This document shows positions 4,000 to 28,922 of a stretch of DNA of 35,070 nt, in pieces (within the stretch, counting starts at the first letter, position 1; each line of letters starts with the position of its first letter). The translations under genes were made by a program, and so were the position numbers. Source of the DNA: a virus. The stretch is from the IMG/VR virus record IMGVR_UViG_3300031857_000664, positions 1 through 35,070 of that record; one strand, written 5' to 3'. The notes under the pieces were generated by a model that saw only the letters and a program-made list of their open reading frames with translations, had not been told where the DNA came from and made no database searches.

Positions 4000-4353
4000 G
4001 TGGCCTGGATCGAGGACGAGACCTGGGCGATGGAGCAGGGCATTGACGCCCTGAAGCGCTTCGAGCTGGTCGATGCCAGCGGCGCTGCCTGGACATTCGT
4101 GGGCTGGGACGTCAACGCCACCGTCAGCGATGCGCGGGCCCGCACGATCTACCCGGTGACGGTGACAGCGGACCCTTCGGGCGGAACGGTGCAGCTGGTG
4201 CTGCCCGAGGCGACGGTCAATGAGCTCAAGGTGGGCGGCGACTACCGGTACGACTGCCTGATGGTGCCGCCGGGCGCGACGGTGGCCGATGACCACTTCC
4301 TGGCGACAGGGCCCGTGACGGTGGCCCTGCGCTCCAGCCGGAGGGATCCCTGA
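4000..4353 (+). CDS. Fibre-associated/baseplate-type beta-rich protein
   Basis: The product has 117 residues from a GTG preceded by GAGGG. The pattern LVDASGAAWTFVGWDVNATV, then VTADPSGGTVQLVLPEATVNEL and YRYDCLMVPPG, resembles the immunoglobulin-like N-terminal domain of baseplate/fibre proteins (BppU type). In such phages this protein usually stands immediately before a collagen-like fibre, as here. The stop overlaps the next ATG (TGATG), so the two are translationally coupled. It probably helps attach the fibre to the tail tip. Confidence 0.6.
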   Translation: MAWIEDETWAMEQGIDALKRFELVDASGAAWTFVGWDVNATVSDARARTIYPVTVTADPSGGTVQLVLPEATVNELKVGGDYRYDCLMVPPGATVADDHFLATGPVTVALRSSRRDP

Positions 4354-7300
4354 TGAGCTGCCCTGATGTGGTGCGGGTGACGGTCCCGAGCGGACCGGCG
4401 GCGGTGCGGGTGGTGACGCCTGGGCCTGCGGGTGCGCCGGGTGCGGCTGGGCCTGCGGGCGCTGCCGGGCCGGCTGGCCCTGCGATCGAGCTGCGGGTCA
4501 GCAGCGGGCAGGTGCAGTGGCGGGTGGTCGGCGGCACCACCTGGACGAACCTGATTGCGACGGCGGACCTGGCTGGCCCTGCGGGTCCTGCAGGTGCTGC
4601 TGGTCCCCAGGGCCCGGCCGGTCCTGCCGGTGCCACCGGCGCAACGGGTCCGGCGGGGCCTGCTGGCGCGGCCGGTGCTGATGGCCCTGCCGGTGCCGCT
4701 GGCGCCAATGGCCGCGAGGTGGAGCTCCAGGCCGGCGCGACCCACGTGCAGTGGCGCTACGCCGGAGACGCCAGCTGGACGAACCTCGTCAGCCTGGCCT
4801 CACTGACCGGCCCCGTTGGCCCGCAGGGTGCGACTGGTCCGCAGGGGCCCCAGGGCGCGACCGGTGCGACGGGTCCGCAGGGCGCCACCGGCCCCCAGGG
4901 TGCGACGGGCCCCCAGGGGCCGTCGGGTGTGGCCAATGCCACCGCGCCGATCACCTACGACGCCGGCACGAAGACCGTTGGCATCAACGTCGGCCAGACC
5001 GCCGGCACTGTGGCCGCTGGCGACGACAGCCGCTTCGCTGAGCTGAAGGCCCGGCTCGATGCCTTCCGCGATGCGGCCACCTTCTACGTCAGCAAGGGCG
5101 GCAGCAACACCAACAACGGCACCAGCCCCGGCGAACCGTTCCTGACGATCGGCGCAGCGGTGACCGCCGCCAACGTCTACGTCACGGCCAACGCCGGCGC
5201 CAAGGCCAAGATCCTCGTCGGCCCCGGCGAGTTCGTGGAGGCGTCCCTGCCGTTCCGGCTCAAGCCCAACATCCTCGCCCAGGGTGCGCTGCAGCGGGGC
5301 ACCACCATCAAGCCCGCGAGCGGTCAGGAGCTGAACGGCTTCTGGGCGCTGGATTCCGGTTGCATGGTGGCGGACTTCACCCACAGCGGCCATCAGGCCA
5401 CCGGCACCAGCTCGACGGACTCCACGGTGGGGACACGGGCCTGGGCGGTGCGGCTGAACGAGGCCGCTAACGGCGGGGCGGGCGTGTTCCTGACCGCCAG
5501 CCCCTACGTCAAGGACTGCGCCTCGATCACCGCCGAGGATGACGCCGGCCTGGCCGGCAGCACCAGCACCGGCGACACCGGCGGCGGCGTGCTGGTCGAT
5601 GGTGCGGCTTGCCGGAGCGATTCCCCGATCCGCAGCCTGCTGGTCTACGGCTTCACCCAGCAGAACCTGGGCGGCCCCGGCGCGGTCGTTCGGAACGACG
5701 GCTATGCCGAGCTGGTCAGCTTCTTCGGGCTGTTCGGCACCTGGCACGTCCAGTGCGAGACCGGCGGCCAGGCGACCCTGAGCGGCGGCGGTGCCAGCGA
5801 GTTCGGCATCTACGGCCTGGTGGCCGATGGCTACAGCACCACGGCCCTGTTCACCGGCTCCCTGCGGGTAGCGGCCTCGTCCGGCGCCCTGACGGTGGAT
5901 GTGGTGAGCCTGAGTGCCAACCGGCTGGGCAGCAGCAGCCGCCCGGCGGCGGGCCAGATCCTGTTACTCGGCGGCAACCCCTACGTCATCCAGTCGAGCA
6001 CCCCGATCGACGCCAGCGGCACGATCGTCACCGACACCGCCCCCACACGGGCCGGCTACCGGGTGACGTTCTTCAACCCCTCGGGCAGCGGCCTGGCGGC
6101 CAACGTGTCCCAGGGCGCTACAGCGGACTTCCGCCAGCGGTCGCAGATCAGCGCCGGCTGCCACAGCGCCAACTACGTCGGCGCCGGCACCAACTACTCA
6201 GCACTCCCCTGGAACGGTGGCGTGCCGATCCGCGGCAACGAAGCGGTCGAGCGCAACCTGGGGCGGGTCTTCGGCCTGATCGTCAACGATGTCGGTGACG
6301 TGAAGGTGGCCGGCGGCGCCTTCGCGGTGGATGGCACCACCGGCGCGGTCACGATCAACACCAGCCAGTTCAACCTCAGCGGGCTCAACGCCGTGGGTCC
6401 GTTCTCACGCAACGGCGGAGCCTCGACGGTGGGGGTGCAGCTCCAGGAGGTCTCGAACAGCACCAGCTTGCTGGCCAGCACCGGCGTCTCTGCCGCCGAC
6501 ACCGCCCCGACCCAGTTCGCGGTCCGCACCTACTCCGACAACCGCTACCTGGCGGGCCTGAGCGTCACCGCCAGTCAGCCGATCAGCATCTCTGACACCA
6601 GCACCCAGGACGGCTCCGGCTTCTGGACCCGCAGCCGCAATGTCGAGCTGACGCTGAACGCCCCCAACGGTCTGGCCCGGCTGGACGGCAGCGGCCTGAT
6701 CCCCTCGACGCTGCTGCCCAGCTACGTCGATGACGTGATCGAGGCGGCCAACCTCGCGGCGTTTTCGGGCACTGGCGAGACCGGGAAAATCTACGTCGCC
6801 CTCGACACCGGCAAGACCTACCGCTGGTCCGGTTCGGCCTACGTCGAAATCTCCGCCAGCCCCGGCAGTACGGATGCCGTCAGCGAGGGCAGCGTCAACC
6901 TCTATTTCACGACCGCCCGCGCCCGGCAGTCGATCAGCGCCGGGGGATCGCTCGACTACAACCCCACCACCGGCGTCGTCAGCTACACCGCGCCCACCCT
7001 CGGCACCGCTGCACCCCTAGACGTGGCCGCCACGGGCGACGCCAGCAGCGCCCAGGTGGTCAAGGGCAGCGACACCCGCCTGAGCGACGCCCGCGAGTGG
7101 TCGGCCCCCACCGTCATCCAAGCCGACGCCGAAGCCGGCACCGCCACCGATCGCCGCGCCTGGACGGTGCAGCGGGTCTGGCAGGCGATCGCCGCCTGGT
7201 GGGCCGCCAGCAGCGCGAAAACCAAGCTGGACGGCATCGCCACCGGCGCCACGGCGAACCAGACCGACGCCCACCTGCTCAGCCGCGCCAACCACACCGG

Positions 7301-7820
7301 CACGCAGACGGCCAACACGATCAGCGACTTGGCCGCAGTCGCCACCAGCGGCAGCGCCAGCGACATCAGCACCGGCACCCTGGCCGCCGCGAGACTCCCG
7401 AGCACCGGCGTCCGTTTCGATCAGCTTGGCATCGGCACCGCTGCCGTCAGTGGCTGGGATCTGGTGATCGCTGACTCGTTGGCCCAGCGCCGGCTGAGTG
7501 TCACCGCCAGCAGCGGCACCTACACGCTCGACGTGCAGGCCGGCAACGAGTTCGTCACCAGCGCTGCGATCAACGGCGCGACGACGATCAACCTCAGCAA
7601 CCTGGCCAACATCCCCAGCGACTACCTGTGGCGGGGCGTGCTGGCCTTCGCCTACACGTCGGGAACGATCTCATGGTTTACCGGCAACAGCGGTTACACG
7701 GTCAAGTGGGACGGCGGCAGCGCCATGACCCCCACCGCCAGCGACACCGAACGGGTGGTGATCGAGGTGGTCGGCGGCGGCACCACCATCGAGATTGCAC
7801 CTCTCAAGGGGAGGTCGTGA
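4353..7820 (+). CDS. Long tail fibre with collagen-like repeats
   Basis: This 1155-residue protein has three Gly-X-Y blocks in the first ~190 residues. They are separated by two copies of a ~25-residue module (ELRVSSGQVQWRV...TTWTNL and ELQAGATHVQWRY...ASWTNL). Residues about 243-560 have the turn-rich repetitive character of a right-handed beta-helix (YVSKGGSNTNNGTSPGEPFL). Later come fibre motifs such as LYFTTARARQSIS and NHTGTQTANTISD. The final ~100 residues (YTVKWDGG near the end) look like a C-terminal fibre domain. Three collagen blocks should form a trimeric stalk. The role is host recognition, probably with the propeller protein encoded next. Confidence 0.85.
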   Translation: MSCPDVVRVTVPSGPAAVRVVTPGPAGAPGAAGPAGAAGPAGPAIELRVSSGQVQWRVVGGTTWTNLIATADLAGPAGPAGAAGPQGPAGPAGATGATGPAGPAGAAGADGPAGAAGANGREVELQAGATHVQWRYAGDASWTNLVSLASLTGPVGPQGATGPQGPQGATGATGPQGATGPQGATGPQGPSGVANATAPITYDAGTKTVGINVGQTAGTVAAGDDSRFAELKARLDAFRDAATFYVSKGGSNTNNGTSPGEPFLTIGAAVTAANVYVTANAGAKAKILVGPGEFVEASLPFRLKPNILAQGALQRGTTIKPASGQELNGFWALDSGCMVADFTHSGHQATGTSSTDSTVGTRAWAVRLNEAANGGAGVFLTASPYVKDCASITAEDDAGLAGSTSTGDTGGGVLVDGAACRSDSPIRSLLVYGFTQQNLGGPGAVVRNDGYAELVSFFGLFGTWHVQCETGGQATLSGGGASEFGIYGLVADGYSTTALFTGSLRVAASSGALTVDVVSLSANRLGSSSRPAAGQILLLGGNPYVIQSSTPIDASGTIVTDTAPTRAGYRVTFFNPSGSGLAANVSQGATADFRQRSQISAGCHSANYVGAGTNYSALPWNGGVPIRGNEAVERNLGRVFGLIVNDVGDVKVAGGAFAVDGTTGAVTINTSQFNLSGLNAVGPFSRNGGASTVGVQLQEVSNSTSLLASTGVSAADTAPTQFAVRTYSDNRYLAGLSVTASQPISISDTSTQDGSGFWTRSRNVELTLNAPNGLARLDGSGLIPSTLLPSYVDDVIEAANLAAFSGTGETGKIYVALDTGKTYRWSGSAYVEISASPGSTDAVSEGSVNLYFTTARARQSISAGGSLDYNPTTGVVSYTAPTLGTAAPLDVAATGDASSAQVVKGSDTRLSDAREWSAPTVIQADAEAGTATDRRAWTVQRVWQAIAAWWAASSAKTKLDGIATGATANQTDAHLLSRANHTGTQTANTISDLAAVATSGSASDISTGTLAAARLPSTGVRFDQLGIGTAAVSGWDLVIADSLAQRRLSVTASSGTYTLDVQAGNEFVTSAAINGATTINLSNLANIPSDYLWRGVLAFAYTSGTISWFTGNSGYTVKWDGGSAMTPTASDTERVVIEVVGGGTTIEIAPLKGRS

Positions 7821-17387: not shown

Positions 17388-18366
17388 GGGCGAGGCTCTC
17401 CCAGTCGGATGGTTGGGTGGTGGTGCTGAGGGCGCCCTGGCCGGGTGCCGCGAACTCGGGGTCTGCGACGGCCAGGAAGGCGAGGAGATCGTTGATCTCC
17501 GCGTCCTTGCGGTCCCGGGTGGAACGGTAGCCGCCTCCGCTTCCATTTCCAACCTGGAGCGCAGCGGGTCGCCCGTACTCGAGCCAGCGGTCGAAGGTGA
17601 TGCCGGCCCAGCGGCGGCCGATCTCATCGGCGGTGATGGCCTTCTGGAGCTGCGCCCGGATCGCCTCGATCCCGCCCCGGGCATCAGCCTGGATCTTGCC
17701 CAGCTCGGTCAGCTGGACGGAGAGGGCGCGCTGGGTCCGCTTGCCGCCCTTGTGGTGGTTCCACCAGGTGCAGAACAGCTCGGCCACGGGCGCCAGGTCG
17801 GCGGGGACGTCGGCGGGGCTGAGCTTGACCTTGCCGGTGGATGCCCCTGCCCCCTCGTCCGGCGCAGCCGGCGCTGTGGCGATCGGTTCGGGCTGGGGGG
17901 TAGGGGGGTCTAAGGCTTCTTGTTCAAGGCCTCTTGTTAAAGGCTTCTTGTTCGTAGCCCCTTTTGGGGGAGGGGTGGGGTCCCCCATTTGGGGGAGGGG
18001 TGTGGTCCCCCGTTTGGGGGTACCCCCATCTGGGGGAGGGGTCCCCCGTTTGGGGGAGGGGTTCTCGGTGCGGACGTGGAAGATCGAGGTAGCGCCGGGC
18101 CTGTCTTCGCGGGTGACCCAGCCCTCGGTGGTGAGCCACTTGAGGGCCTGCCGGACGTCATCGCGCTTCATCCGGCACTCCAGCGCCAGGCGATCGAGCG
18201 AGGGCCAGGCGGCGTCATCGCGGCCGGCGTAGTGCCAGAGCCAGGCGTAGACAAACAGGGTGCCCTTGCGTTCGGCGCACTGTTCCACCAGGTCGAGCGA
18301 GAGCATCACGAACGGCCGGCGGGTCAACCGATCCCCGCCCTTGGCCGCTCCGCTGTCAGTTGGCAT
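17380..18366 (-). CDS. Lambda-O-like replication initiator with winged-helix domain
   Basis: The product has 328 residues. The ATG at 18366 is supported by AGGAG 9 nt upstream. Residues about 20-90 form a winged helix-turn-helix of the type in phage initiators (LFVYAWLWHYAGRDDAAWPS, LDRLALECRMKRDDVRQALK, WLTTEGWVTRE). Residues ~95-150 are a Pro/Gly/Lys/Arg repeat encoded by the iterons. The C-terminal part includes LFCTWWNHHKGGKRTQRALS and ITFDRWLEYGRP, which could contact the helicase or loader. It heads the leftward operon, and the iterons and AT-rich repeats (17912-18061) lie within the gene. That layout is known from lambda O. It would bind its own gene to start phage replication. Confidence 0.75.
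   Translation of the reverse strand: MPTDSGAAKGGDRLTRRPFVMLSLDLVEQCAERKGTLFVYAWLWHYAGRDDAAWPSLDRLALECRMKRDDVRQALKWLTTEGWVTREDRPGATSIFHVRTENPSPKRGTPPPDGGTPKRGTTPLPQMGDPTPPPKGATNKKPLTRGLEQEALDPPTPQPEPIATAPAAPDEGAGASTGKVKLSPADVPADLAPVAELFCTWWNHHKGGKRTQRALSVQLTELGKIQADARGGIEAIRAQLQKAITADEIGRRWAGITFDRWLEYGRPAALQVGNGSGGGYRSTRDRKDAEINDLLAFLAVADPEFAAPGQGALSTTTQPSDWESLAHA
17524..17552 (-). promoter_or_regulatory. GGAAGC-type promoter candidate inside the initiator gene
   Basis: On the minus strand TTGGAA, GGAAGC and TACCGT appear with a 17-nt spacer between -35 and -10. It would serve the genes from 17387 leftward. It lies in coding sequence, so confidence is low. Confidence 0.3.
17912..18061. other. 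Putative phage replication origin (3 tandem 14-mers plus 5 palindromic iterons)
   Basis: Three tandem 14-mers, AAGGCTTCTTGTTC at 17912, AAGGCCTCTTGTTA at 17926 and AAGGCTTCTTGTTC at 17940, have 6 G+C of 14, much lower than the surroundings. They adjoin five copies of CCCCC-N4-GGGGG, of which four continue as AGGGG, at 17958, 17982, 18007, 18023 and 18043. The first copy has one C fewer. An AT-richer tandem repeat beside initiator-binding palindromes is the usual form of an origin. The G-runs could also form G-quadruplexes. Confidence 0.7.
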
Positions 18367-19162: not shown

Positions 19163-19792
19163 ATGGCCTTCCGCCGTTTCGAGCTGACGATCCAGGGCAC
19201 CCGCCCTCTGATCTTCGGCAACCCCTGCGAGATGGATCCCCTCGGGATCCACAAAGCCGCTACCGACTACTTCACCAGCCTCAAGAAGAACCGCAACGAA
19301 CACGCACTCCGCCGGCTCAAGTGGTTGTTCTCCGGCTACTGGGGCACCGAGGGAGAGTTCGTCTACGGTCCTGCCCTGGATGGTGACTCCAAGTTCCGCG
19401 GTTTCTCCGATCCATTTCTGCCTGCCCACAATCTGCAGCGTTGCATCCGCGACGGCGCTACCGCCTGGAAGCTCGGCAAAGACACCAAGCGGGCCATCGT
19501 CGTCGAGAACGACGCGGAGCTGATCTACGACGGGCCCCGTGATGCGGAGCTGATGTACGAAGATCCGCGCTTCGTGTCCGTCGCCCCCACCGGCCGTGGT
19601 GTCGTTGCCGTCAGGCTCCGGCTGCCCCAGTGGAGCGCGACCTACAACCTCCTCGTCAACGACGAGATCATCGATCCCACGACGCTGGCGAAGATCATCG
19701 ACCGCGCCGGTATTGCCGAAGGCCTCGGCACCTGGCGGCCCGCCAATGGCCGTTTCAGCGTCACCCGGCTCGACGAAGTGGAGGTGGCCTGA
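19163..19792 (+). CDS. Conserved phage protein, paralogue of the 28184-28831 gene
   Basis: The product has 209 residues, with AGGA 8 nt before the ATG. The N-terminus RFELTIQGTRPLIFGN parallels LELEIEGTSPLVINR of the protein encoded at 28831-28184. The C-terminal ~80 residues also align: VAPT, then R-x-R with W-x-A, then IDRAGIAEGLG and RPANGRFSV. The family is frequent in tailed phages and I do not know a proven function. It is translationally coupled to the next gene (TGATG). Long frames upstream of the ATG belong to the non-coding module. Confidence 0.7.
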   Translation: MAFRRFELTIQGTRPLIFGNPCEMDPLGIHKAATDYFTSLKKNRNEHALRRLKWLFSGYWGTEGEFVYGPALDGDSKFRGFSDPFLPAHNLQRCIRDGATAWKLGKDTKRAIVVENDAELIYDGPRDAELMYEDPRFVSVAPTGRGVVAVRLRLPQWSATYNLLVNDEIIDPTTLAKIIDRAGIAEGLGTWRPANGRFSVTRLDEVEVA

Positions 19793-20307
19793 TGTCGAGC
19801 CCCAGGATTGCATCGATCGATGCCATGTCCCTCTACAAGGGACAGACCATCCCCGCCGATCAGGCGTGGACCTACTTCATCACCCGCCGGCAAGAGACCT
19901 ACCAGGGCTGGCTGACCCAGCACGGTGACGAGGAGACCGCGAAGGCGGCCCGCCTGTCGCTTGTGTTGCAGCGGGTGATCCAGTGGCTGGAGCGCGACCG
20001 CAACCAAGCGGGGCTGCCGCCGCTGGTGATGAACACCTCCGGTGGTTGCATCAACGTGCTGACCGATGACAAGGCGAGCGCCTACCTGAACGATCAGGCC
20101 TTCTCTGGCCTGCGTCGTCACCAGCGGGCCACTGGCCGACTGGTCAACGCGGTTGACGAATCGAAGCTCACCGGTGCCGCCCGGCGGGAGCACCAGAACA
20201 GGATCAACGTTCACAGTTTCATCGCGGCCTCGGCCCAGGGCGCACAGAAGCAGCTCCGGCTGTTGAAGCGTGCCGGCAAGCAGGCGCCGAAGCTGGAGGG
20301 GAGCTGA
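19792..20307 (+). CDS. Hypothetical partner of the preceding gene
   Basis: The 171-residue protein begins at the TGATG overlap. It is mostly helical: ADQAWTYFITRRQETYQGWL, KAARLSLVLQRVIQWLERDR, and a basic C-terminal half with AARREHQNRINVHSFIAASA and KQLRLLKRAGKQAPK. The basic tail suggests nucleic-acid contact. No family was recognised. The stop overlaps a following ATG (20307) whose frame runs into the hairpin array and is not credible as protein. Confidence 0.6.
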   Translation: MSSPRIASIDAMSLYKGQTIPADQAWTYFITRRQETYQGWLTQHGDEETAKAARLSLVLQRVIQWLERDRNQAGLPPLVMNTSGGCINVLTDDKASAYLNDQAFSGLRRHQRATGRLVNAVDESKLTGAARREHQNRINVHSFIAASAQGAQKQLRLLKRAGKQAPKLEGS

Positions 20308-20308
20308 T

Positions 20309-20882
20309 GGCCTGGGCATCCGTCAGGTGTAAGCCCCAGGCCGCCGCGCCCCGCGCCCCGTCTCAATGCCCCGCGCCCCGTCTCAATGCCCTGCGACACC
20401 GCGCCGCGCGACGCCTTGCCTTGCGACGCACTCCACAGGGGGGCCCTCCGGGGGCCCGCCCACCCCAGCCCGCAGCCACCGGCTGCCTGGTGGGGTGACT
20501 CACCACGACGCCGCGCCTCGCCACGATCGCGCCGCTTCGCTGAGCCGCGCAGCGCAACGCACACCACAGGGGCCCCTCACGGGGCCCACAACCCACCCTC
20601 CGACCTATGGTCTGACGGTGGGCTGATGCCCACCACTCCGCGCCGCCGTGCTGCGCTTTGCTTCTCACCGCCACTCTGCGCCCAGCGTCCCTGCGCCGCT
20701 CGACGCAACGCACACCACGGGGGGCCTCAATCGAGGCCCCACACCCCACCGCTGAGGGCTCCTCTCCGGTGGGTTGACCCACCACCGGCGCATCGCACCG
20801 CTTTGCTCCGCATTGCTCCCCCCAGCCATGCTCCGCTGCGCATCGCCGCCCGCCGCGACTCACCGCACAGGGCCTTCCGGCC
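20309..20882 (+). repeat. Array of four three-hairpin modules with variable C-rich tracts
   Basis: The junction unit consists of H-a (CACCACRGGGGCC, loop, GGCCCC), a small hairpin H-b and H-c (GGTGGG-YTGAY-CCCACC). H-a copies lie at 20441-20457, 20570-20587, 20721-20740 and 20871-20882. H-b copies are GCAGCC/GGCTGC (20472), GACC/GGTC (20602) and GAGG/CCTC (20754). H-c copies lie at 20489-20504, 20617-20634 and 20768-20783. Variable tracts of ~55-90 nt separate the units. No gene in any frame is credible here. The region from 20883 to 21030 holds no further unit that I can see, only the leader of the next gene. Confidence 0.65.
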
Positions 20883-21030
20883 ACCACCGACCCGGCACCC
20901 CCGGGGCTTTCGTTTGGCAACCGAACCGCCCCACGCAGCACTCTGCACCGTTCTGCACCACCCCGCACCGTTCTGGGATCTTCCGGCCCCATCCGGCTAC
21001 CGTGCGGGCACCACCACCAACCACCGCCCC

Positions 21031-24682: not shown

Positions 24683-24853
24683 ATGACCCCCGCCGATCTG
24701 CCGCCGGGCTCCCGCCGCCCGGTGCGGCTGTCCATCACCCTGCCGCTCGACACCTACGACCAGCTGCGCGGGGAATCCCGCCGCCAGGGCCGCAGCCTCT
24801 CCAACCTCGCCGCCCATCTGCTGGCGGTCGGCCTGGCCACCCTGCTGAGCTGA
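24683..24853 (+). CDS. Ribbon-helix-helix DNA-binding protein
   Basis: The 56-residue product reads RPVRLSITLPLDTYDQLRGE then SRRQGRSLSNLAAHLLAVGL, the strand-helix-helix of the Arc/MetJ/CopG class. It would act as a dimeric repressor. It starts after GCGCACCACCACCACCGCAAC. A hairpin with GCCCGGG/CCCGGGC arms follows the stop. Its target could be one of the GGAAGC promoters, but this is an inference. Confidence 0.7.
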   Translation: MTPADLPPGSRRPVRLSITLPLDTYDQLRGESRRQGRSLSNLAAHLLAVGLATLLS

Positions 24854-24859
24854 GGAAAG

Positions 24860-24877
24860 GCCCGGGTTGCCCCGGGC
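24860..24877 (+). terminator. Terminator-like hairpin
   Basis: GCCCGGG-TTGC-CCCGGGC, 6 nt after the ribbon-helix-helix gene. No T run follows. Confidence 0.45.
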
Positions 24878-24944
24878 TGCCGCTCTCCCCGCCACCCTGC
24901 GCCAGGCCCTCGCGCCAGGCCGTAGCGTCCGTCACTCTGCTCGC

Positions 24945-24974
24945 GTTTCCAAATGGAAGCAGCACCACTAGGAT
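24945..24974 (+). promoter_or_regulatory. GGAAGC-type promoter
   Basis: TTTCCA, 3 nt, GGAAGC, 8 nt, TAGGAT (17-nt spacer), just before the gene at 24998. Confidence 0.5.
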
Positions 24975-24997
24975 CAGCCGGCACCACCAACACCACC

Positions 24998-25210
24998 ATG
25001 CGACTCCTCCGCCGTTGCTGGCTTTCGCTCTGCGCCGCCCTCGATGCCGGCCGCACCGCCTGGGATGTGAGTGGGCACATCGACAGCCGCCTGCGCCGCC
25101 AGCAGCTCCGCCTGGCCCTCCTGGACCGCGACCACCTGCAGCGCATCTACCAGGCCGGCCACGACGAGGCCTACCGCGAGGAGCTGCATCGCCGGGGTCT
25201 GCTGCACTGA
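24998..25210 (+). CDS. Small basic helical protein
   Basis: The 70-residue product starts after GGCACCACCAACACCACC. Most of it is helical and basic (SRLRRQQLRLALLDRDHLQR, then IYQAGHDEAYREELHRRGLL). The N-terminus (RLLRRCWLSLCAALDAG) is amphipathic and may touch membrane. No family was recognised. Confidence 0.55.
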   Translation: MRLLRRCWLSLCAALDAGRTAWDVSGHIDSRLRRQQLRLALLDRDHLQRIYQAGHDEAYREELHRRGLLH

Positions 25211-26307: not shown

Positions 26308-26345
26308 GGGAATCAGGGTGGGTGATGGTGACCCTGCCAGGGTCA

Positions 26346-28128
26346 GGATGCCGCTTGCGGTTCAAAGCGGCAACGGACGCGCCTTGCCGGCCGCACCGGT
26401 CGTCTCCTCGTCAGTCGCTGGCAGGCCACGCCAGCCATGCCGCACCGGGTCTCGCCACGCCTTACCTGCCGCTCCATCCCAGACCTGGGCGCTCCATGCC
26501 AGCCGTGCCCCATCACGGGGTCCACGCCCATCCGTGCCTGCCCCTCCAACCCGCGCCGCGTCTTCGCTGCCGTGCCAGCCAGGCCGACCGACCTAGCCCT
26601 GTCATGCGGGGGTGCGCCGTGCCAGCCATGCGCTCCGCGCGCTCCGACCCAGACCATGCCTGCGGTCCCAGCGGCGCCAGTCGGGGCCATACCTCGGCGA
26701 GCCGGCCGCTCGCTGCTGCACCTAGCCATGCCGTGCCAAGCCTGCCGCGTCCGGTCGAGCTGGTCCCCGGCGGGCCTCCCTTGCCATGCCTGCCTCTCCG
26801 CATCAATCCGTTCTGGCCAGGCCTGACCAGCCGTGCCGTGGTCGTGCCCGTGGTCACGCCGTGCCATCCCTCACCCTGCTGGGCTTGCCTCGCCTTGCCA
26901 GCCGCGTCGAACCGCGCCAGCCCAGGGGAAGCCTTGCCATGCCTGCGCAGCCAATCGCATCCGCATCGGGCCCATCCATGCCTGCCCTGCCTCGTCTTGC
27001 CTTTGCGGACCGTGATAGTCCTCGCCAGGCCTGCCAACCCGATCCCGTCCACGCCTTGCCTACCGAGCGCTGCCAGCCGGGCCGCCATGAGCGGAGCCAT
27101 GCCAGGCGCTGCGATGCCGGCCTGGCCCAAACAAGTGGAGCCATGCCACACGCTGCGCTGCCAGCCGGATCGTGCCCCGCCAAGCGGCGCGCTGCCCTGC
27201 CGGCCAGCCCAGGCCGTGCCAAGCGGCGCCCTGCCACCCATGCCGGCCACGCCAGGGAGAACCGACCCATGACACGCCGTGCCCGCCGTGCCCGCCGACG
27301 CCTACCTAGACGTGCCGCGCCAGCCCTGCCGCCTCGAGCCAATGGTCCCGGGCCGCGCCGTCCATTTCGCGCCGGCCAGGCCCCGCCGTCCCCTGCTCTG
27401 AGAATCCGCATCACGCCGTGCCTGCCGTCCCGCGCCAACCCGCACCGGGCCCCGTCGTGCGGGGTCGTGCCAGGTCTCTCCTGCCGTCCCGTGCCATCCG
27501 GTGCCAGGCCCCCCAGCCCACCACTCGCGTCGCCCTGCCGGCCGTGCCGACCCAGGCCCAGGCAAGCCTCGGATCCCTCGCCTTGCCGGCCCTGAAGTGC
27601 CATGCCACGCGTCGCGTTGCCGGCCGTGCATCGCCCTGCCTCCCTGGTGTGACCACGCCAGCGGTTCGGCGCCTTTCGGCACCTAGCCTCACCTTGCGGA
27701 GCCAGCGATTCCATGCCAACCATGCCAGTCCTGGCCCGCAGTGCCTCAGCGCTCGATCCGTCGCCACGCCATGCCGGCCGCGCCCACCAGCGCCACGGGT
27801 TCCGAGCCATCGAGGCCATGTCGGCCGTGCCCATCCCATCGCTACTGAGCGCGCCACACCATGCCAGCCGATCGATGCCGTGACGAGCCCGACGACGCCT
27901 AGCCCGCCATGCCGACCACGCCCCACCTACCGGGCGGCGCATTGCCTGGCCGGCCTGTCCCCGCGCTGTGCTGTCGATCCACTCCATGCCAGCCGCTCCC
28001 AGGCTTGCGTTTCCGATCCAGGGCAGGCCTTGCGACTCCTGCCATGGGCAGCGCAGCATCGGCGCGCCTATCAAGCCTCGCCGGCGTTGCCCCGCCTACC
28101 GAGCCGTCAATTCGTTGCCTTGCCTGCG
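26346..28128. other. Gene-free 1.8-kb TGCC-rich, strand-asymmetric tract
   Basis: By hand I count about 70 TGCC words on the plus strand and fewer than ten GGCA. In two sampled 60-nt lines C outnumbers G by 27 to 15 and 27 to 17. Words such as GCCATGCC, GCCGTGCC and CCTTGCC recur without fixed spacing. Long frames exist on both strands because stop codons are rare. All give Ala/Pro/Arg or Trp/His/Gly-rich low-complexity sequence and none has a ribosome site or leader. A TGACCCT/AGGGTCA hairpin (26329-26345) marks the left edge. Nothing else was recognised in this stretch. Confidence 0.6.
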
Positions 28129-28183: not shown

Positions 28184-28831
28184 TCAAATGACGGAAAAGA
28201 GCCCAAAACCTAGGCCCGCGCTGGCTTTTGAGTCGGGCCGACCTTCACCGATGCCGACCTGAAGACCGACCCTGACGATCAGATTGGTCACGTCGGCCGC
28301 CGTCAACATCCCCGCGTCGTACTTGATGCGCAGATTGGCGCCCCAGCGGCGATACATGGGGCGGCAGCGCAGGTCTACAACGCCGGTCGCGTTCCTGGTG
28401 GGGGCTACGTACTGCTCCGCGGTCCCGTGGGTCAGTCGCACCAGCGGGGCACCGTCCACCCTGTCGTAACCGTCGGCGTGAACGCTGAACGCCAGCTTCG
28501 CGTGGGTCATCTTGAAGCCGCAGGCCCGGCAGGCGCTGATCGCCCCGTTGCGAAACGCGGCGGCATGGATGCCCTCCCAGCCGTCCTCGCTGACGTGCTT
28601 GGCGTTCTCAAACAGGGCATCAAAGTCCTTCGGCTCCCGGGCCTTCTTGCTCTTGGCGGTGCTGCCGGCTTCCTGGGTCGCCCGCATCATCTCGATCGCC
28701 TTGGCGCTGAAGCGGTTGATGACAAGGGGGCTGGTGCCCTCGATCTCCAGCTCAAGCAGGCGGAAGTCCGGCGCCTGGATGACGACGATCTCTTCAGTGG
28801 CGGCGGTCTTCTTCGCGGTGGTGGTGGCCAT
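28184..28831 (-). CDS. Conserved phage protein, paralogue of the 19163-19792 gene
   Basis: The 215-residue protein has a ~20-residue N-terminal extension (ATTTAKKTAATEE). It then shows LELEIEGTSPLVINRFSAKA, a Lys-rich part, and HAAAFRNGAISACRACGFKM. The end has YVAPTRNATGVVDLRCRPMY, RRWGANLRIKYDAGMLTAAD and GIGEGRPDSKASAGLGFGLF. The G-x-GE-RP-x-G-FG end is conserved in a common phage family of unknown function. It is transcribed alone from a GGAAGC promoter at 28895-28922 and ended by strong hairpins. Confidence 0.7.
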   Translation of the reverse strand: MATTTAKKTAATEEIVVIQAPDFRLLELEIEGTSPLVINRFSAKAIEMMRATQEAGSTAKSKKAREPKDFDALFENAKHVSEDGWEGIHAAAFRNGAISACRACGFKMTHAKLAFSVHADGYDRVDGAPLVRLTHGTAEQYVAPTRNATGVVDLRCRPMYRRWGANLRIKYDAGMLTAADVTNLIVRVGLQVGIGEGRPDSKASAGLGFGLFSVI

Positions 28832-28894: not shown

Positions 28895-28922
28895 ATCGTA
28901 CATAGGCGCTTCCAGTTGGCAA
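28895..28922 (-). promoter_or_regulatory. GGAAGC-type promoter, leftward
   Basis: On the minus strand TTGCCA, 3 nt, GGAAGC, 7 nt, TACGAT (16-nt spacer). The spacing equals that of the promoters at 18613 and 23982. Confidence 0.6.

Follow-up and report, generated by a model that had tools for sequence, protein, structure and literature searches.

VIPR (Viral Interference Programmable Repeat) systems are described in a single 2026 preprint built on two worked examples, both with gammaproteobacterial hosts (PMC13142463). A VIPR combines a Vipr protein and a vap gene with vrRNAs composed of tandem YNNGG repeats. The vrRNA is encoded between genes, next to vipr, and the minimal locus includes a vap gene (vap1-6). 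The Vipr protein is described as an ancestral single-RRM RAMP with a G-loop, and a vrRNA that is expressed and co-purifies with it belongs to the description. The NN letters of the vrRNA pair with double-stranded DNA with a one-base skip, and phages use VIPR against competing elements; some vrRNAs target other VIPRs. Each vrRNA holds 9-16 repeats, and in the SUSP1 clade (the system of Escherichia phage SUSP1 is type II) it ends in a structured, invariable 3' tail. The preprint also mentions arrays of other types, staggered ones among them, and consensus sequences related to this one (PMC13142463).

The DNA analyzed here, called the window, is a stretch of 35,070 nucleotides from the IMG/VR record IMGVR_UViG_3300031857_000664. 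It is a piece of a 62,585-base contig whose ends overlap by about 250 bases and join at window positions 24791-25037; the genome is thus circular or circularly permuted, with a length of about 62.3 kb. The window also contains short tandem repeats within a replication-initiation (O-like) gene (17912-18062), reminiscent of lambda-type origin iterons, and a large tail-fibre-like protein with collagen-like GPA/GPQ repeats (4353-7820). The phage, a cyanophage, carries two VIPR systems. We consider it very probable that a gene-free tract in the first of them, VIPR-1, is the vrRNA guide array of a phage-encoded VIPR made up of vipr, the array, and a probable vap.

Several features are shared with the SUSP1 VIPR: a phage-encoded minimal locus, a homologous RAMP protein (by profile for vipr-1 and by direct match, E 2e-10, for vipr-2), tandem GGY/NN RNA, a predicted target in the gene of a competitor with the wobble base skipped, and, on the modules of the second system (VIPR-2), a constant structured tail. 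In contrast to SUSP1, VIPR-1 has one long, tail-less array of about 1.75 kb, with abutting guides parted by 4-nt units and a looser GGY, and VIPR-2 has a GCR/NN scaffold; related consensus sequences and further array types are mentioned in the preprint. The RAMP subunits of class 1 CRISPR systems (Csm3/Cas7, types III-A and VII) resemble Vipr-1 in predicted fold and glycine-rich loop. Unlike them, VIPR-1 relies on one small protein, at about 10% identity and with no CRISPR repeats or cas genes, and its guide is split into NN pairs whereas a CRISPR spacer is continuous.

A strand-biased tract with a five-base period

A sequence-only reading of the window had singled out positions 26346-28128 as a gene-free tract of strand-biased TGCC words. 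The bias is real: the plus strand of the tract holds 73 TGCC against 6 GGCA, while the two words balance across the remainder of the window (266 and 245). The difference of +67 compares with -20 to +17 in other 1783-base stretches of the window and with at most 20 in the tract-distant part of the parent 62.6-kb contig, and dinucleotide-preserving shuffles of the tract yielded 28.0 ± 4.5 TGCC. The recurring words GCCATGCC and GCCGTGCC, also remarked on in that reading, occur 9 and 12 times in the tract and 0 times on the opposite strand. The tract is indeed free of recognizable genes; it sits between two minus-strand genes, 3' of 28831-28184 and 5' of 26307-25750, and its longest open frame (406 aa) had no Pfam match. 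It occupies about 3% of the genome and not the 5% first estimated, because the contig from which the window comes is about 62 kb long. A leftward terminator had been placed to the right of the tract; a terminator-like stem and T-run does lie there, as a weak candidate from a pattern scan (Table 1).

The same reading saw no fixed period, which proved mistaken. On the minus strand, GGY words spaced 5 apart numbered 75 against 12 expected (z = 19.2), and those spaced 4 apart numbered 48 against 12 (z = 10.6); the codon periods of 3 and 6 were seen in the remainder of the window. The TGCC bias of the plus strand arises because GGC is written on one strand only and reads GCC, often TGCC, on the other. 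No match to the tract was returned by BLASTN against phage records or by a search of Rfam, and Tandem Repeats Finder reported no array in it. The hallmarks of class 1 CRISPR-Cas (direct repeats with unique contiguous spacers, cas genes) were not found at the tract. One 827-nt piece of the guide strand was less structured than expected (z +3.2), but signs were mixed among 150-nt pieces and among other arrays, and we do not claim selection for an unstructured guide strand.

The VIPR-1 locus and its relatives

The coordinates of the features of both systems are collected in Table 1. A profile built from 52 relatives of the vipr-1 product (alignment A1) matched the SUSP1 Vipr protein (PDB 36pp) at E 7e-11, the sole solved protein matched. 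The AlphaFold model of Vipr-1 (pLDDT 87) found Csm3/Cas7 RAMP subunits of types III-A and VII as its top Foldseek matches (best E 4e-5), and a structural neighbour in BFVD is annotated as a RAMP protein. Residues G189, G193, and R198 are invariant in the G-loop region of the family alignment. By profile and model, then, the vipr-1 product is a Vipr-family protein with a predicted Csm3/Cas7-like RAMP fold. The phrog_15946 protein on the other side of the tract matches the same kinds and number of records in the phages collection as does Vipr-1 (33 each). Its predicted model has two long C-terminal helices, and a fold search of the PDB gave no match with E <= 0.001. PADLOC returned no match for four proteins of the VIPR region.

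Table 1. Positions of VIPR-1 and VIPR-2 features in the window
Feature	Position	Strand	Basis
vipr-1 (phrog_4652), single-RRM RAMP protein, 215 aa, predicted guide-RNA-binding subunit	28184..28831	-	profile and fold
Probable vap (vipr-accessory protein) gene, phrog_15946 family, 185 aa	25750..26307	-	co-conserved with vipr-1
vrRNA (guide) array of VIPR-1, probable, ~360 pentamer units GGY+NN	26374..28124	-	period, unit parse, conservation
Leader, array end to vap start, with two short hairpin-forming sequences (GCCGC..GCGGC, GACCCTGGCAGGGTC)	26308..26373	-	read from sequence
Terminator-like stem and T-run overlapping vipr-1 3' end	28199..28217	-	pattern scan, 2 found against 1.0 expected (weak)
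Sigma-70-like promoter candidate upstream of vipr-1	28895..28922	-	pattern scan, 1 found against 0.0 expected
vipr-2, second Vipr protein, 209 aa	19163..19792	+	phmmer against 36pp, E 1.9e-10; phrog_4652, E 2e-24
Gene overlapping vipr-2 stop, 171 aa	19792..20307	+	ORF listing
VIPR-2 guide m1, 16 units GCR+NN	20786..20868	-	unit parse
vrRNA tail t1 of m1	20713..20786	-	alignment A2, covarying structure
VIPR-2 guide m2, 15 units	20636..20713	-	unit parse
vrRNA tail t2	20562..20635	-	alignment, covariation
VIPR-2 guide m3, ~11 units	20506..20562	-	unit parse
vrRNA tail t3	20431..20505	-	alignment, covariation
VIPR-2 guide m4, ~17 units, different 3' end (CTTACACCTGACGGATGCCCAGG)	20341..20431	-	unit parse

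In our reconstruction, the array would be transcribed on the minus strand, with the orientation shared by vipr before it and the probable vap after it, and its processed RNA would be loaded onto Vipr-1, the subunits of which would bind the GGY scaffold, one per pentamer unit. The NN pairs would jointly specify a DNA target, with one base skipped per unit at the codon wobble position. The complex would then occupy a gene of a rival phage or satellite and block it, by repression and not cleavage. The leader is a possible 3' end of the array.

The unit parse of the array gave 55% exact GGY units and 19% 4-nt units such as GGCN. GGYNGGY boundaries are mostly 34-49 nt apart, or about 7-9 units, which suggests that the array holds some 40 short guides. 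No tail like that of type II vrRNAs was seen inside it. In the clean arrays of relatives the unit is GGYNN, guides run to 9-14 units, and a single 4-nt GGCA stands between them; exact GGY makes up 83-96% of units in these arrays and 44-96% across the arrays of all relatives. Faster change at NN than at GG positions in the GC-rich clade was considered as evidence of selection and dropped, since the scaffold by itself brings unrelated guides into alignment.

The contrast in fidelity means that the VIPR-1 array may be decaying or may follow a modified rule. In the first case it would descend from a working VIPR array and guide nothing now, the second VIPR having taken over. The many irregular unit steps and the failure to find targets for VIPR-1 guides are what such decay would look like. 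On the other hand, the first unit after a boundary is GGY in 81% of cases against 36-67% for later units; in homologous arrays of close relatives, GG positions change at about 9% and other positions at about 15%. Vipr-1 itself is intact and conserved, and arrays about as loose as that of the window occur in its closest clade and in the marine clade of low GC. We therefore regard decay as unlikely, though it is the alternative to be taken most seriously. Since no target was found for its guides, the activity of the VIPR-1 array is inferred from the preprint and the data given here.

Conservation was examined in 68 viral loci fetched with the vipr-1 gene (phrog_4652, a family with no assigned function). 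In about 50 loci with both neighbours, from phages of 34-69% GC, the order and orientation of vipr, tract, and phrog_15946 gene are constant, and the two genes are separated by a tract of roughly 200-1900 bases that, in gene orientation, is rich in GGCA and poor in TGCC. The comparison with related phages that the sequence-only reading had proposed thus found position and orientation kept. In the gap that follows the 3' end of vipr, GGCA greatly outnumbers TGCC even in phages of 34-42% GC, and in those of 35-39% GC the tract is 58-59% GC, with G at 0.41-0.43 and C at 0.15-0.17. In more distant relatives the tract may follow the second gene, precede the first, or follow the pair. A GGC tract beside the vipr and phrog_15946 genes was also found in Mycobacterium phage Quico, Gordonia phages UmaThurman and ODay, cyanophage Cy-LDV1, and a Rhodoplanes phage-plasmid, carriers that differ in gene neighbourhood. 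The GGC-unit arrays lie at L168:4613-4855 in Quico, L169:5578-5906 in UmaThurman, L170:5570-5745 in ODay, and L171:6057-6370 in the Rhodoplanes plasmid; the genes flanking these four are annotated as hypothetical.

Growth of a C-rich, low-complexity tract by neutral slippage or mutation, an option of the earlier reading, is difficult to reconcile with the same position, orientation, and unit in loci of such different GC, with a tract GC that departs from genome GC in low-GC phages, or with guides of relatives that decode to real gene motifs (below). Some repetition does exist: the segments at offsets 1017 and 1061 of the array look duplicated and then diverged, and neighbouring guides of one relative (L098) repeat with a 49-base period. 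Duplication may be a route by which guides are added; as an account of the tract as a whole, slippage is very improbable.

A second VIPR with tailed guides

The vipr-2 product is closer than that of vipr-1 to the SUSP1 Vipr and matches 36pp directly, without a profile. The 171-aa protein encoded next to it had no PADLOC, NCBIfam, or other family match and is a possible accessory protein. Downstream of vipr-2, on the opposite strand, lie four modules of 11-17 GCR+NN units each, three of which are followed by a constant tail; the whole system spans 19163-21000. A structure predicted from 11 tails (the window and five other contigs) has 93% of its cells paired and double changes at 10 of 19 pairs; 0 of 500 shuffles gave covariation as high. 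The different end of m4 recurs in four relatives (L304, L309, L310, and L316). This conserved end of the last module overlaps the end of the neighbouring gene. Because two of these relatives, L304 and L310, are pieces of contigs that also carry VIPR-1 (G005 and G003, respectively), at least three phage contigs have both VIPR systems.

These modules, at 20.3-20.9 kb, had been likened to the tract and offered as the source from which it grew by slippage. The likeness was well seen, since they are the vrRNA modules of the second VIPR; the kinship does not come from growth of one tract out of the other.

Decoding of guides and significance

Read with a 1-nt skip, m1 spells S-A-x-I-H-E-W-G-E-I-D-x-V, a VapE motif. 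Its 12 central units, with up to three mismatches, matched 2 of 300 Synechococcaceae genomes, and the reversed control matched 0. Both matches encode SAWIHEWGEID(S/A)V of a VapE-domain protein (PF05272, E ~1e-61), in differing codons, and in both the skipped base falls on the wobble position. By a rough estimate, 0.3 matches of 24 letters with up to three mismatches are expected by chance per 300 such genomes; what carries weight is that the matches converge on a single protein motif in the correct phase. The exact 18-letter core of m1 was found in 18 viral contigs, 16 of which encode GKAWIHEWGEIDRITG in the same wobble phase, and the contigs checked carry phage genes (terminase, portal, capsid, RecE/RecT). 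The best match to the full guide was 24 of 32 letters, so that an exact target is absent from the collections searched; the phage's own genome reached 19 of 32 at best. On this evidence m1 reads like the VapE helicase gene of competing cyanophages, the predicted target. One contig, L337 (IMGVR_UViG_3300042516_002033), holds both an m1-matched VapE motif and a relative of vipr-2 (L314), and from this the predicted target and attacker types overlap.

A guide of another relative, L176, lies exactly between two GGCA units, the first guide of its array. Taken as codon positions 1 and 2, its ten NN pairs give D-I-V-N-L-F-S-R-V-G, the motif conserved in Vipr proteins; the vipr gene of L046 agrees with the guide at 19 of 20 letters. 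The array (L176:6669-8043) is on a contig of a hot-spring bacterium and would be a VIPR aimed at a VIPR, which fits the targeting of other VIPRs that the preprint reports for some vrRNAs (PMC13142463). In the loci L193 and L195, a VIPR guide of Streptomyces sp. WAC 01529 is antisense at 17 of 18 letters to an ORF that neighbours the VIPR of Microbacterium lacus, and the skip falls on the wobble base.

Other searches were less productive. No target was found for m2. Two VIPR-1 guides, searched as exact patterns in viral contigs, gave 0 and 42 matches, the latter (16 letters) of chance size, and a search of 300 Synechococcaceae genomes for VIPR-1 targets, allowing one mismatch, gave 1 match, about the chance number. 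In about 4.8 Mb of phage DNA, searched with skips of 0-3, guides showed a slight excess only, at skip 1, and several of the skip-3 matches were other arrays. A match between an L051 guide and L235 was rejected as chance; it was without a coding frame placing the skip at the wobble base.

The missing target for the VIPR-1 array, along with a GGC motif repeated on one strand, would also suit a long non-coding RNA or protein-binding decoy that has no guiding role, such as a sponge for a GGC-binding protein. We give this little credence, as sister arrays decode to targets and the neighbouring protein family includes a member shown to use such RNAs as guides (PMC13142463).

The sequence-only reading had drawn directional use from an orientation-biased word in a gene-free tract, and a guide array bears it out; it also rightly listed a protein-binding tract among its options. 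Chi sites and other orientation-biased words of phages and bacteria are short, strongly strand-biased, and spread over the genome, whereas the tract is one periodic block beside one gene family. A Chi-like or KOPS-like word, or one that serves packaging or the direction of replication, would be recognized by an exonuclease, a translocase, or a packaging motor. The reading had offered the Chi-like, packaging, and replication-direction forms, and the strong strand asymmetry and the recombination genes (Erf, SSB, Gp157) of the genome would suit such a word. This is the least credible account; it is contradicted by the 5-base period, by the confinement of the word to one locus with TGCC and GGCA balanced elsewhere, and by the strict tie to one gene family, the tract accompanying the vipr and phrog_15946 pair into unrelated phages with different neighbourhoods.

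Taking the array as the guide array of VIPR-1, we suggest tentatively, at somewhat less than even confidence, that the phage deploys two VIPRs with different scaffold alphabets, one a tail-less, punctuated GGY array of about 40 short guides and the other a set of tailed GCR vrRNAs, and that the loose array of the cyanophage clade is a distinct type with a variant code, in which 4-nt units mark guide boundaries and non-GGY units are tolerated. Set beside the preprint (PMC13142463), the additions to VIPR are a two-system genome, punctuated tail-less arrays, and a VapE-like guide. The 1-nt-skip code gains an independent test from guides that read as the Vipr motif of rivals and as the VapE helicase of competing cyanophages. 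The locus and its relatives carry VIPR to picocyanobacterial phages and to phages of Mycobacterium smegmatis and Gordonia that have names and can be cultured, and the presence of two VIPRs with different scaffolds in one genome makes the pairing of guide and protein directly testable.
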